Positions 4,790 through 8,310 of a stretch of DNA of 25,908 nt are shown piece by piece; position 1 is the first letter of the stretch; each line of letters begins with the position of its first letter. The stretch spans positions 1-25,908 of the IMG/VR virus record IMGVR_UViG_3300044530_000638; one strand, written 5' to 3'. The notes below the pieces were generated by a model, which was not told where the DNA came from, ran no database searches, and saw only the letters and a program-made list of their open reading frames with translations. Made by a program: the position numbers and the translations under genes. This DNA is from a virus.

Positions 4790-4810
4790 TTGACAATAAC
4801 CGCTTGTTAT
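4790..4810 (+). promoter_or_regulatory. TTGACA element with short hairpin at start codon
   Basis: TTGACA (4790-4795) lies 19 nt upstream of the ATG at 4809. It is directly followed by an inverted repeat, ATAAC (4796-4800) and GTTAT (4806-4810), whose right arm contains the first bases of the start codon. This is the first of a series of similar junction elements in the window. Function unknown. Confidence 0.35.
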
Positions 4811-5822
4811 GACCTATGAACCACAAGGAGTTTTCGCAGAAGGGCGGACGTTCGACTTCGGACAAGAAGAGGGAATCTTCACGCCTCAATATGCAAAGAG
4901 CAAGAGAGGCCCGAAGCCGAAAGGCAGCAGATTCTCGAAATGCGAAGGCTGCGGAAATTCCTTCACCGTCACAAGGGGAGCCGTAGGGAAATATTGCTCT
5001 AAGCCATGCATGCACCAGAGCAAAATTGAATCATGGCCGGTTGGCTTTGATTGCTCACGGTGCCTCGCCAGTGTTGGGATTGGAATGAATGTGGCATCAA
5101 GGCTTTTGGGCGTGACCAAGGGGATCATTCAACGGTCATGGAGGAAAGAGGGGATCAGGGCGCAGTTACCAAAAGGTGTTGATTCTTGGTTTCAGCATGC
5201 AAAAAGAAATGGTGCTTTCAGAGCTGATCCTTTCGAAAAGCAATGGTGGGGTGATAATGGGAAGGAGTGGATGGATGAATATAAGCCGCGCTTCTTTGAT
5301 TGGGGTTCAATATGGAACATCGAAAGATCTAATCGGCTTTCAACAAAATACTACAATTCAGCCGAATCCATTTACGAAAGAGTCTGTTATCGGGACATTA
5401 TTTCGCGTGGTTTCAAATCCACTTATCCAGACTGGTCTTCGATATGGACTAATTCCCGAATGAGCATGAGTGCAGAAGAGAAGGCGGTGGACAACCTGAG
5501 GACAAGGTTCAAGCTATTGATTAAGACAGCAAAGTCTGGAGGGTCCTTTATTCGTAGCAATCTGATCGGATGCACAACGAGCCAATTAAAGACTCATCTT
5601 GAATCCACATTTAAGCGCGGCATGACATGGGACAACTACGGCACGCGATGGCACGTTGACCACATACTGCCTTGTGCGTCATTCGATCACACGGATGAGA
5701 ATCAACGCGCACAGTGCTGGCACTGGACGAACCTTCGCGCCCTCGACGCCAAGAAGAACATGGAGAAGAGTGACACCATCACAGAACCACAGATGAGCCT
5801 GCTTCTATGCGTAAGTCGTTGA
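4809..5822 (+). CDS. HNH endonuclease with zinc ribbon and HTH region
   Basis: This encodes 337 residues. Residues about 44-67 contain a treble-clef/zinc-ribbon pattern (CEGCGNSF, then KYCSKPC). Residues about 81-115 look like an HTH (NVASRLLGVTKGIIQRSW). The C-terminal 75 residues are a phage-type HNH domain: LKTHLESTFKRGMTWDNYG, then RWHVDHILPCASFDH and WTNLRALDAKKN. DNA-reading modules ahead of an HNH nuclease are typical of free-standing homing endonucleases. The middle of the gene is visibly AT-richer than its neighbours, which supports separate acquisition. It could instead assist packaging, as some HNH proteins do, but it is not next to the terminase genes. Confidence 0.85.
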   Translation: MTYEPQGVFAEGRTFDFGQEEGIFTPQYAKSKRGPKPKGSRFSKCEGCGNSFTVTRGAVGKYCSKPCMHQSKIESWPVGFDCSRCLASVGIGMNVASRLLGVTKGIIQRSWRKEGIRAQLPKGVDSWFQHAKRNGAFRADPFEKQWWGDNGKEWMDEYKPRFFDWGSIWNIERSNRLSTKYYNSAESIYERVCYRDIISRGFKSTYPDWSSIWTNSRMSMSAEEKAVDNLRTRFKLLIKTAKSGGSFIRSNLIGCTTSQLKTHLESTFKRGMTWDNYGTRWHVDHILPCASFDHTDENQRAQCWHWTNLRALDAKKNMEKSDTITEPQMSLLLCVSR

Positions 5823-5940: not shown

Positions 5941-6483
5941 ATGAAAATCGAGACCATCAAAACCACCGCGCTCATCCCGTATGCGCGAAATTCACGCAGC
6001 CATTCTGAATCTCAGGTGGCCCAGATCGCCGGGAGTATCCGAGAATTTGGATTCACCAACCCTGTCCTGATCGACGCGGACAACGGCATCATCGCGGGCC
6101 ATGGCCGGGTGATGGCGGCGGGCTTGCTCGGGCTGGCATCCGTCCCGTGCATCCGCCTGGCGCACCTGACCGACACCCAGAAGCGAGCCTACATCATCGC
6201 AGACAACAAGCTCGCGCTGAATGCCGGGTGGGATGAGGAGATGCTCGGGCTGGAACTCGCTGACCTGCGGGAGGCGGACTTCGATCTTGGCCTGCTTGGC
6301 TTCGACGCGGAGGGAATCGAGGCAGCTTTGAACCCTGACGAGTTGGAGCCCGAGGAGCCTGCCGAGGGAAACTTCGACAGCCAGTATGCCGTCACCGTCG
6401 TTTGCAAAGACGAGGGCCACCAGCAGCAAATCTTCGAGCGCCTAACCTCCGAGGGCCTAACCTGCAAAGTCGTCTGCGTATGA
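5941..6483 (+). CDS. ParB/Srx-like protein (modification cassette)
   Basis: This encodes 180 residues. Residues 8-95 are a ParB/sulfiredoxin-fold domain: LIPYARNSRSHS (11-22), SIREFGFTNPVLID, and the signature IIAGHGRVMAAG around 50-61 (GHGR at 53-56). In phages this domain often precedes a DNA methyltransferase; here the methylase is absent. The C-terminus ends in a compact segment (YAVTVVCKDEGHQQQIFE, then CKVVCV) that looks like a small alpha/beta domain. The stop overlaps the ATPase ATG (ATGA at 6480-6483). It is the first gene of a four-gene overlapping operon, so I infer a DNA-targeting or NTP-dependent role in base modification rather than partition; no ParA is present. Confidence 0.8.
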   Translation: MKIETIKTTALIPYARNSRSHSESQVAQIAGSIREFGFTNPVLIDADNGIIAGHGRVMAAGLLGLASVPCIRLAHLTDTQKRAYIIADNKLALNAGWDEEMLGLELADLREADFDLGLLGFDAEGIEAALNPDELEPEEPAEGNFDSQYAVTVVCKDEGHQQQIFERLTSEGLTCKVVCV

Positions 6484-7175
6484 AAATCGAAATACGAAAC
6501 TCCTGCCGCGACTTCAACTCCTACCGGGCCGCCCGCGTGAAGTCCCTGTTCAACCCGGAGAGAGGAGACACATTCTCGCTCGACGCCGATATTCCGGGTG
6601 CCGACGAGGACTGGCAAATCGGCGTGGTCGTCGGCCCGTCCGGCACCGGCAAGTCCAGCATCGGGCGGACGCTCGGCGGCGGCATCACAGACCTTTACGA
6701 GGGGTGGCCGGAAGACCAGCCAATCGTCGACGCCATCGCGCCGGGCGGCGACTTCAACGCCGTCACCGGGTCATTGGCTGCGGTGGGTCTTGGCGACGTT
6801 CCGGCATGGCTTCGCCCGTTCAAGGCACTAAGCAACGGCCAGCAATTCCGCGCAGGCCTCGCCCGTTGCCTATGCGACCCGCCCGACGTGCTTGTGGTGG
6901 ATGAGTTTACCTCGGTGATCGACAGGCAGATCGCTAAGATCGGCGCGCTCGCGTTTGCAAAAACGTGGCGCAGGCTACCCGGCAAGAAGGTGGTGCTACT
7001 CTCCTGCCACTACGACATCCTCGACTGGATCGAGCCGGATTGGGTTTACGATACAGGAAAGGGCCAGCTCACAAAAAAAGCGGAGCCGGGCCATGGAAAC
7101 GCCCGGCAATCGAACTGGAAATCAGGAAGGTCAACTCCAGTTATTGGCCCATGTTTGAGCCGCATTATTATCTGA
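6480..7175 (+). CDS. Soluble ABC-type ATPase (zero-frame product; N-terminal part of predicted ABC-GNAT fusion)
   Basis: The zero-frame product is 231 residues. It has Walker A GPSGTGKS (52-59), signature LSNGQ (117-121, a variant of LSGGQ), Walker B VLVVDE (137-142), D-loop SVID (145-148) and H-loop His177. There are no membrane segments and no permease nearby, so this is not a transporter. The ABC domain ends near residue 195; the 31-residue zero-frame tail after codon 200 is basic and low in information. At codons 199-200 lies an A AAA AAA heptamer in register for -1 frameshifting; slipping there gives a 385-residue ABC-GNAT protein ending at 7636. From memory, ABC-ATPase/GNAT fusions exist in other phages, which supports this reading. 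The ATPase may power DNA remodelling or base exposure for the modifying domain. Confidence 0.85.
   Translation: MKIEIRNSCRDFNSYRAARVKSLFNPERGDTFSLDADIPGADEDWQIGVVVGPSGTGKSSIGRTLGGGITDLYEGWPEDQPIVDAIAPGGDFNAVTGSLAAVGLGDVPAWLRPFKALSNGQQFRAGLARCLCDPPDVLVVDEFTSVIDRQIAKIGALAFAKTWRRLPGKKVVLLSCHYDILDWIEPDWVYDTGKGQLTKKAEPGHGNARQSNWKSGRSTPVIGPCLSRIII
7055..7107 (+). promoter_or_regulatory. Programmed -1 ribosomal frameshift signal (ABC to GNAT)
   Basis: Three elements lie in the order known from dnaX-type sites. There is an SD-like purine run AGGAAAGGG (7055-7063), ending 9 nt before the heptamer. The heptamer A AAA AAA (7073-7079) has zero-frame codons AAA AAA at 7074-7079. Then a 5-nt spacer (7080-7084) leads to a perfect hairpin, GCCGGGC (7085-7091), 9-nt loop, GCCCGGC (7101-7107). 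A -1 shift moves from the ATPase frame exactly into the GNAT frame. A simple assembly indel is the alternative, but would not explain the hairpin and in-phase heptamer. Confidence 0.7.
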
Positions 7176-7636
7176 AGCTGCCGCGCCCGGTGGCGGCTGA
7201 ATACTTCGTCGGGCTGGTCGACGGGGAGCTTGTCGCGCACCTCGCCGTCACGCCCAGGTTTGAAATCAAAGGGTTCCGCGCCACCCGGCTTGTCGTGATG
7301 CCCGAGTGGCAAGGGGCGGGTGTCGGCACCCGGTTTCTGAACTGGGTGTGCGCCTTCCACAAGGCGGGCGGCGGCCGTCGGGGTAAAGAGTTCCCCACCT
7401 ACTTTCACACGTCACACCCGCAGCTTGTCCAATTCCTCAAGCGGTCGAAAGATTGGAGGCAAGTTTCAGCCGTGATGAACGGTGGCAATAAAGCAAAGAG
7501 CGCCGCGTCCATAAAAAAAACCTACCGGGCCGGGTTGCACGGGGGGGGTATGGCAGCGCCGTCAATCGGCTACGGCGGCCACTTTCGCGCAGTCCAGGGG
7601 TTCAAGTTCATCGGCCCAGCGCTTCCGAAACCATGA
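7079..7636 (+). CDS. Mom-like GNAT acyltransferase domain (produced by -1 frameshift from the ABC ATPase)
   Basis: In the -1 frame, 185 residues follow the slip site. The GNAT fold starts at once (IELEIRKV, SSYWPMFEPHYYL), continues with FVGLVDGELVAHLAVTP, and has the acetyl-CoA-binding motif LVVMPEWQGAGVGTRFL (QGAGVG at fusion residues 278-283). It ends in RAVQGFKFIGP. A short N-terminal W-x-x-F-x-x-H-x-Y-L region and a C-terminal aromatic strand are, as I recall, features of the GNAT relatives of phage Mu Mom. The first strand has no ATG/GTG close upstream; ATG 7151 would cut it off and GTG 6965 would add about 40 residues of non-coding-like sequence. Fusion by frameshift is therefore the best start. 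Predicted role: transfer of an acyl or carbamoyl-like group to DNA bases. An A8 run (7513-7520) and a G8 run (7541-7548) lie near the 3' end. Confidence 0.75.
   Translation, partial: SGAGPWKRPAIELEIRKVNSSYWPMFEPHYYLKLPRPVAAEYFVGLVDGELVAHLAVTPRFEIKGFRATRLVVMPEWQGAGVGTRFLNWVCAFHKAGGGRRGKEFPTYFHTSHPQLVQFLKRSKDWRQVSAVMNGGNKAKSAASIKKTYRAGLHGGGMAAPSIGYGGHFRAVQGFKFIGPALPKP
7513..7548 (+). repeat. A8 and G8 homopolymer runs in the GNAT gene
   Basis: An A8 run at 7513-7520 is an in-register A AAA AAA slippery heptamer for the GNAT frame, and a G8 run follows at 7541-7548. A -1 shift at the A8 run would read stop-free through to the formyltransferase ATG at 7633 in the formyltransferase frame. Whether this is used is unknown; the normal GNAT C-terminus looks complete. 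Confidence 0.45.
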
Positions 7637-8310
7637 GCGAGAAATTGAAAATCGTTGTTGCAGGGCAGAAGCGTTTCGGTCGTGACGTGTTCGAGATGCT
7701 ACGGGAAGAAGGCCACGAGGTCGTCGCGTGCGTCTGCCCGATCACGCCGGAGAACCCGGACAAGCTCTGGATCTCCGCAGCGAACACCGACACGCCAATC
7801 ATCAAAGCGGGAACGCTGACCTGCGAAACCTGCCCAGCGTGCGACCTGATCGTCACCGCGCACAGCCACGACTTCATCGGCAAGCGCACCCGCCTCAAAG
7901 CCCGGCTCGGAGCGGTGGGCTACCACCCCAGCCTGCTGCCGCTGCACCGGGGGCGCGACGCGATCCGGTGGTCGATCCGCATGCGTGAGCGGGTGACCGG
8001 CGGCTCGGTTTACTGGCTGTCAGAAACGGTGGACGGCGGGCCTATCGCCGCGCAGCAGCACGTCTTGATTCGCCCCGATGACGACGAGCTTTCCCTCTGG
8101 GCGCGCGACCTTTCGCCGCTAGGGGTGAAGCTGCTCCGCAGGGTGGTGCGGGACATTTCCGCCGGCAGAATCATCAAACAGCAGCAGGAGGCCGCACTTG
8201 CCACATGGGAGCCGTCAATCGCCGGAAGCCCCAGCCTATTCCGCCCCGACCTCCTCCTCCTACCCGCGCCGGGCCAGAGGTTTGAACAATACATCAACTC
8301 AATCGCATGA
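7633..8310 (+). CDS. Formyltransferase-like enzyme (Fmt/GART fold) with altered active site
   Basis: This encodes 225 residues. The N-terminus is a Rossmann-like strand-loop-helix (KIVVAGQKRFGRDVFEML), as in methionyl-tRNA and GAR formyltransferases. The core motif is GYHPSLLPLHRGRDAI (96-111), followed by GGSVYWLSETVDGGPI with Asp134. In Fmt, GART and ArnA the catalytic trio is Asn-His-Asp, with Asn two residues before His in N-x-H-x-SLLP. Here His98 and Asp134 are present but the Asn position is Gly96. The Fmt C-terminal OB domain is absent. ATGA overlaps on both sides (7633-7636, 8307-8310) place it in the cassette operon. Inferred role: supplying or adding a formyl/one-carbon group during base modification. 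A housekeeping tRNA formylase is unlikely. Confidence 0.75.
   Translation: MSEKLKIVVAGQKRFGRDVFEMLREEGHEVVACVCPITPENPDKLWISAANTDTPIIKAGTLTCETCPACDLIVTAHSHDFIGKRTRLKARLGAVGYHPSLLPLHRGRDAIRWSIRMRERVTGGSVYWLSETVDGGPIAAQQHVLIRPDDDELSLWARDLSPLGVKLLRRVVRDISAGRIIKQQQEAALATWEPSIAGSPSLFRPDLLLLPAPGQRFEQYINSIA

Follow-up and report, generated by a model that had tools for sequence, protein, structure and literature searches.

What is the function of a phage gene cassette that places a ParB-like protein, a soluble ABC ATPase, a GNAT domain and a formyltransferase-fold (FT) protein directly 5' of the terminase genes? The cassette lies at positions 5941-8310 of the window, the stretch of 25,908 bases (positions 1 to 25,908, given as one strand) of the virus record IMGVR_UViG_3300044530_000638 that was analysed here and that also contains a tailed-phage structural module. 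An earlier note on this DNA had proposed a system for hypermodifying DNA bases. We consider it probable that the locus is a DNA-modification cassette equivalent to Mom, composed of a tail protein, an ABC ATPase, a GNAT extension in the -1 frame and an enzyme of the 10-formyl-THF dehydrogenase (FDH) type, and working by the mechanism proposed below.

Organization of the locus

The features of the cassette are listed below.

5941..6483, plus strand: ParB-like N-terminal domain protein with conserved C-terminal tail, 180 aa (PF02195, E 8e-5; phrog_620, 9e-56)
6379..6480, plus strand: 36-aa tail domain (...QYAVTVVCKDEGHQQQIFERLTSEGLTCKVVCV), elsewhere a free microprotein, ending where ABC begins (190/196 loci; phrog_28816)
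6480..7175, plus strand: soluble ABC ATPase, zero-frame product, 231 aa (ABC_tran, 4e-8, all ABC motifs; phrog_11143, 1e-84 over residues 1-201)
7073..7079, plus strand: slippery heptamer A_AAA_AAA (next base G) in ABC phase, predicted -1 programmed frameshift site, kept in 92/101 -1 loci
7085..7107, plus strand: hairpin GCCGGGC-(9 nt)-GCCCGGC, likely stimulator, 5 nt 3' of the heptamer; an equivalent hairpin covaries in ten relatives
7079..7636, plus strand: GNAT domain, -1 frame, C-terminal half of ABC-GNAT (Acetyltransf_1, 6e-6; phrog_11143 positions 197-351; GNAT fold in the AlphaFold2 model)
6480..7636, plus strand: predicted frameshift product ABC-GNAT, 385 aa, a conceptual -1 join collinear with in-frame fusions
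7633..8310, plus strand: FT protein of the FDH-hydrolase type, with G96, H98, S100 and D134 (Formyl_trans_N, 2e-17; PDB FDH hydrolase domain, 3e-23)

The ParB-like, ABC ATPase and FT genes are clean ORFs, and ATGA overlaps link ParB to ABC (6480-6483), GNAT to FT (7633-7636) and FT to the small terminase gene (8307-8310). The ABC part carries Walker A (GPSGTGKSS), signature (LSNGQQ), Walker B (VLVVDEF) and H-loop (SCH) motifs. As the earlier note had stated, the unit adjoins packaging genes, the small terminase (phrog_57) being followed by the large one (GpA), and no methylase domain was found in the ParB protein. Its description of a unit of four overlapping genes stands as far as the four parts and their ATGA overlaps are concerned, but the cistrons number three, namely ParB-tail, ABC-(-1)-GNAT and FT. 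Predicted promoters and terminators showed no excess over chance.

Recurrence of the gene neighbourhood

A gene-neighbourhood search had been set beforehand as a check that could refute the proposal. Relatives were gathered from IMG/VR and GTDB genomes and reduced to 201 non-redundant viral and bacterial loci, carried by viruses and prophages of Bacteroidota, Bacillota, Verrucomicrobiota, Pseudomonadota and Actinobacteria. The families do recur together: an FT gene lies at most 400 nt downstream in 149 of the 159 testable loci (62/64 among bacterial loci), and a tail corresponding to the final 36 residues of the ParB-like protein stops where ABC begins in 190 of 196 loci. Terminase genes stand beside the cassette in the window phage and also in Gordonia and Lactococcus phages. 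FT is absent from the Streptococcus/Lactococcus phage branch of ABC-GNAT, as is the C-terminal GGHxRAxQ motif of the GNAT domain; motif and FT are both present in 133 loci, both missing in 8 and discordant in 8, a pattern that largely reflects one phylogenetic split. Formyl chemistry is hence not universal to ABC-GNAT.

Among the 190 loci that keep the tail, 76 have it on a longer N-terminal part of the ParB type, while in 114 it forms a short protein, typically of 40-55 aa, which in Porphyromonas phages is annotated as 'acr candidate'. Since the tail is mostly a free microprotein, ParB is an optional extension, and the suggestion that ParB positions or exposes DNA is weakened accordingly; what is near-universal is the 36-aa tail. 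The ParB domain of the window has strong PHROG matches, and its PF02195 match (E 8e-5) falls under the Pfam cut-off.

ABC and GNAT are joined by a predicted -1 frameshift

In a PHROG profile search the ABC part spans positions 1-195 and the GNAT part positions 197-351 of the same family, phrog_11143 (357 positions), and a single ORF encodes both in Gordonia phage NHagos (gene 2), Komp_PAO1_1 and Porphyromonas phages. The GNAT frame of the window is -1 relative to the ABC frame and overlaps it, the two meeting at A_AAA_AAA_G (7073-7079). No suitable start codon precedes the first strand of the GNAT domain, and use of the only ATG close by (7154) would cut that strand off. The two domains noted previously are thereby confirmed (ABC_tran 4e-8, Acetyltransf_1 6e-6), but as halves of one ABC-GNAT protein, covering both parts of phrog_11143, instead of separate genes.

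The 201 loci comprise 96 in-frame fusions, 103 loci with GNAT in the -1 frame and two with GNAT in +1. A GNAT start codon (ATG/GTG/TTG) is missing in 71 of the 103 -1 loci. When two of these with a broken ABC gene were set aside, an in-phase A_AAA_AAA or A_AAA_AAG was present at the junction in 92/101 -1 loci as compared to 2/96 fused loci (Fisher p about 1e-42, a value inflated by kinship, as the loci are not phylogenetically independent). The two fused loci with a heptamer (L048 and L240) are in frame because their A-run is one base longer than in sister loci. Elsewhere within the ABC genes the heptamer is scarce, with 19 occurrences in about 35,900 codons. In a tree of 144 sequences the fused and -1 states need few changes, and the window phage falls in a slip clade. 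In the streptococcal/lactococcal branch an A7 run occurs only in L222, and a conserved CAGGTTTTTC...CCCCCAC stretch takes its place. Tenacibaculum phage pT24 was considered as an additional frameshift case and rejected, as it has an in-frame TGA inside GNAT.

Downstream of the heptamer, the window contains a G+C stem of 7 bp in which 7085-7091 pairs with 7101-7107, starting 5 nt past the heptamer. In the 45 nt after the A-run, 18 distinct loci with runs of A6-A7 folded more stably than shuffles, with a mean z of -1.49 compared with -0.01 for control windows from their own ABC genes (p 1e-4), whereas the mean z of A9-A11 loci was -0.55 (p 0.015 for the difference) and the hairpin is weak or absent in most of them. 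The signal emerges only once dinucleotide content has been controlled for and the A6-A7 loci are considered apart; the global folding energy of the junction was not extreme relative to windows of its own gene. Ten loci of one group share an 8-bp hairpin that is 100% paired, with changes on both sides at three pairs (CG/GC, GC/AU, CG/UA); its covariation score was reached by none of 500 shuffles, and sliding the register nearly abolished the signal. The window hairpin is likely a frameshift stimulator.

From this sequence evidence, we read the ABC-GNAT junction as a programmed -1 ribosomal frameshift, which would yield the fusion protein. The split could instead result from poly-A phase variation, from sequencing or assembly error or from gene decay; homopolymer runs do slip, L048 and L240 are in frame through a run one base longer, and L152 and L162 look broken. 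However, the -1 state and the heptamer phase are kept in 92 loci, isolate genomes included, the independent contig L002 has a junction identical to that of the window, hardly any locus has a run length that would bring the two frames into register, and the hairpin covaries, leaving such non-programmed origins very improbable. A partial alternative, to which we give appreciable weight although we do not favour it, is that members with A9-A11 fuse through RNA-polymerase slippage and that only those with A6-A7, including the window, use ribosomal frameshifting. The run lengths (6-7 or 9-11) and the hairpin difference between the two classes agree with such a division, and transcriptional slippage could operate in A9-A11 loci, but all of them keep the heptamer in phase, although slippage during transcription would not require it. 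For the A7 run of the window, slippage on the ribosome is the simpler explanation.

The GNAT domain is not a Mom relative

The AlphaFold2 model of the GNAT domain (pLDDT 83.6) matched GNAT structures in a fold search, and the domain has an acyl-CoA loop of the (Q/R)xxGxG type, QGAGVG starting at Q73, in which the Q and the three G residues are invariant; both features place it in the GNAT superfamily. No solved structures were findable by its sequence. The earlier note had likened it to Mom of phage Mu, and as a claim of kinship this fails: the domain does not match PF25680, a model present in the searched library, hhalign against Mu Mom gave a probability of 0.1, and the acyl-CoA loop is canonical. 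Mom was not among the best matches listed for the fold search either.

The formyltransferase-fold protein is of the FDH type

In phages, FT is annotated as PurN-like. Among solved structures it comes closest to the FDH hydrolase domain (3e-23 in the PDB), and profile comparison likewise ranked FDH (8e-38) ahead of the next best, Fmt (6e-26). FT has the invariant residues H98, S100 and D134, corresponding to an HPS motif and an Asp. The His and Asp are invariant in 62/62 FT relatives, while all 62 have Gly, Ile or Val where amine formyltransferases carry their catalytic Asn. FT lacks the Asn-x-His ... Asp pattern of the PurN/Fmt amine N-formyltransferases and agrees with FDH-type domains in sequence relation, HPS motif, Asp and missing Asn. 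FDH hands its formyl group to a phosphopantetheine thiol, and members of the fold without the Asn include hydrolases. FT is an FDH-like enzyme that probably makes a thioester donor rather than acting directly on an amine. The former idea of a formyltransferase that adds or supplies a one-carbon group is plausible in this recast form. HypX, a distant FT relative, has been proposed to form formyl-CoA (PMC6802093), and the combination of an FDH-type FT, this precedent and a GNAT domain with an acyl-CoA loop makes a hand-over through formyl-CoA coherent as a proposal. Compared to FDH (ALDH1L1) and the N-domain of HypX, with FDH the best match and the His, Ser and Asp kept, the phage FT stands alone, without a dehydrogenase, carrier or enoyl-CoA hydratase domain.

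The cassette replaces Mom in related loci

The strongest argument for a role in DNA modification is replacement at the mom locus, which was observed in relatives of the cassette other than the window phage. Ten related Porphyromonas gingivalis Mu-like phages, 88-100% identical in the tail region, differ at their right ends, where five have the cassette, four have Mom (PF25680, 6e-56 in phage014a) and one has neither; none of the Porphyromonas right ends examined carried both. The flanks of the exchange are 86-91% identical. BK068095 and BK068090 match at 91% and 86% as far as the nucleotide before mom, and identity resumes in the last 93 nt (82%).

In phage Mu, Com is the translational activator of mom. 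NC_000929 annotates it in these terms. Pseudomonas phage PAN70 has com (PF10122, 6e-18) and mom (PF25680, 2e-77), and its com-mom leader has a 282-nt counterpart in Komp_PAO1_1 at 73% identity. This counterpart includes com, but the genes that come next are those of the cassette and not mom; in the regions compared the two phages are otherwise dissimilar. Com lies 5' of the cassette in Komp_PAO1_1 and in L043, L067, L157 (scoring just below the Pfam cut-off), L158, L160, L286 and L303. No Com was found in the window. Taken with the Porphyromonas exchange, the Com leader of Komp_PAO1_1 puts the cassette in Mom's place twice, once under Mom's own regulator. Cassette and Mom thus alternate at one locus and Com precedes the cassette at others, which supports the DNA-modification role proposed for the cassette.

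Proposed mechanism and alternatives

The cassette probably adds a small acyl group to the phage DNA and so evades bacterial defences, and this group is perhaps formyl. ABC dimers together with the tail protein, and with ParB where present, would load onto DNA and use ATP to expose bases or to move along them. The frameshift would fix how much ABC is made free and how much as ABC-GNAT, and dimers may as a result bear a single transferase arm or only a limited number. With 10-formyl-THF as the source, the FDH-type enzyme would load formyl onto the CoA thiol, a step already proposed for HypX, and the GNAT domain would pass the acyl group to the exocyclic amine of a base, rendering virion DNA resistant to restriction. 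In its most specific form, which we advance tentatively and regard as less likely than not, phage bases would be N-formylated with formyl-CoA by a frameshift-made ABC-GNAT motor acting during ATP-driven movement, in a system that replaces Mom and can sit under the same Com.

The same DNA-modification role might be served with another group, the GNAT domain drawing on acetyl-CoA or some other acyl-CoA of the host, while FT would either modify the base further or hydrolyse 10-formyl-THF and thereby tune folate or formate pools. The acyl-CoA loop is general, the streptococcal phage branch of ABC-GNAT does without FT, and FDH, the top match, belongs to the Asn-less proteins that include hydrolases; against this, FT adjoins GNAT in 149/159 loci and GGHxRAxQ goes with FT, if largely through one phylogenetic split. 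We regard this alternative as possible but somewhat doubtful. A reading that abandons DNA modification is that the cassette is a moron for defence or superinfection exclusion, in which GNAT would acylate proteins of the host or of an invader, or else tRNA, and the mom locus would be a shared accessory hot spot. ABC ATPases and GNAT toxins are known in defence systems, the ABC part weakly matches mad3 in PADLOC, and Mu-like phages have an accessory site at the right end that could house unrelated genes. The retention of Com, Mom's translational activator, 5' of the cassette argues otherwise, as do the position beside terminase genes in the window, Gordonia and Lactococcus phages and the lack of any toxin or nuclease partner seen, and we judge the moron reading improbable. 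Modification of phage DNA is the reading that we retain.

Relation to known systems and significance

A GNAT coupled with an ABC ATPase has been predicted to acylate a DNA base (Iyer et al., 2013, via PMC7824862), and the cassette resembles this phage-borne system, of which Tenacibaculum phage pT24 is a distant example, in its GNAT, its ABC ATPase and the predicted base acylation. Beyond that prediction as cited in PMC7824862, the phrog_11143 branch has an FDH-type FT, a tail microprotein, a -1 frameshift and the exchange at the Com/Mom locus; no paper combining these was found in a literature search that covered the 2013 work through its citation. The combination is therefore new only in part: ABC-GNAT as a DNA modifier was already predicted in 2013, and recoding, a tail microprotein, an FDH-type partner and exchange at the Com/Mom locus appear to be new. 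With Com-Mom of phage Mu the cassette shares the GNAT fold, the expected anti-restriction DNA modification and, in relatives, the genomic position and Com, whereas it differs in the GNAT family, in the ABC, tail and FT partners and in the window's having no Com. The frameshift resembles those of dnaX and of the phage tail chaperones (gpG-gpGT) in its in-phase slippery heptamer and downstream hairpin, and is of the A_AAA_AAG type as in dnaX. In contrast to these, it would join an ATPase to the transferase of a predicted DNA-modification enzyme, for which close relatives use an in-frame fusion instead.

If this reading is true, the cassette would represent a widespread DNA hypermodification system whose donor chemistry can be tested, whose compact enzyme unites motor and transferase, and which puts programmed frameshifting to an unusual use, and the natural exchange of Mom and cassette would provide close phage relatives in which their functions can be compared directly.

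The ABC/GNAT junction

In seven of the collected ABC-GNAT loci, all from Streptococcus or Lactococcus phages (L085, L086, L213, L216, L217, L220, and L224), GNAT has no start codon and lies in the -1 frame. These loci lack the A7, and their ABC/GNAT junction carries a conserved stretch resembling CAACAGGTTTTTC..TTCCCCCACGA. A_AAA_AAG is present in their sister locus L222.

Across the slip sites of 93 loci, A-runs of 6, 7, 9, 10, and 11 were observed, and none of 8. In loci L048 and L240, GNAT is naturally in frame and the A-run has been kept, exceeding that of sister loci by one base; they are either true fusions or indels. In the ABC-GNAT of Tenacibaculum phage pT24 (L325, positions 32066-33238 of the record), which serves as the published example of such a protein, a TGA stands in frame within GNAT, and the two annotated genes look like a single interrupted ORF.

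Neighboring genes and existing annotation

Two endonuclease-like genes were identified in the window, one of them immediately 5' of the cassette:
763-1566, HNH / endonuclease VII-like gene
4809-5822, HNH / endonuclease VII-like gene

The 42-aa protein annotated as "acr candidate" 5' of the cassette in Porphyromonas phages (BK068090-92, PP754929) is the conserved tail microprotein, making the anti-CRISPR label doubtful. In PQ287647, MN908693, and similar phage records, the names given to cassette genes (phosphoribosylglycinamide formyltransferase, tRNA-methyltransferase, or iron-siderophore ABC transporter) look misleading.
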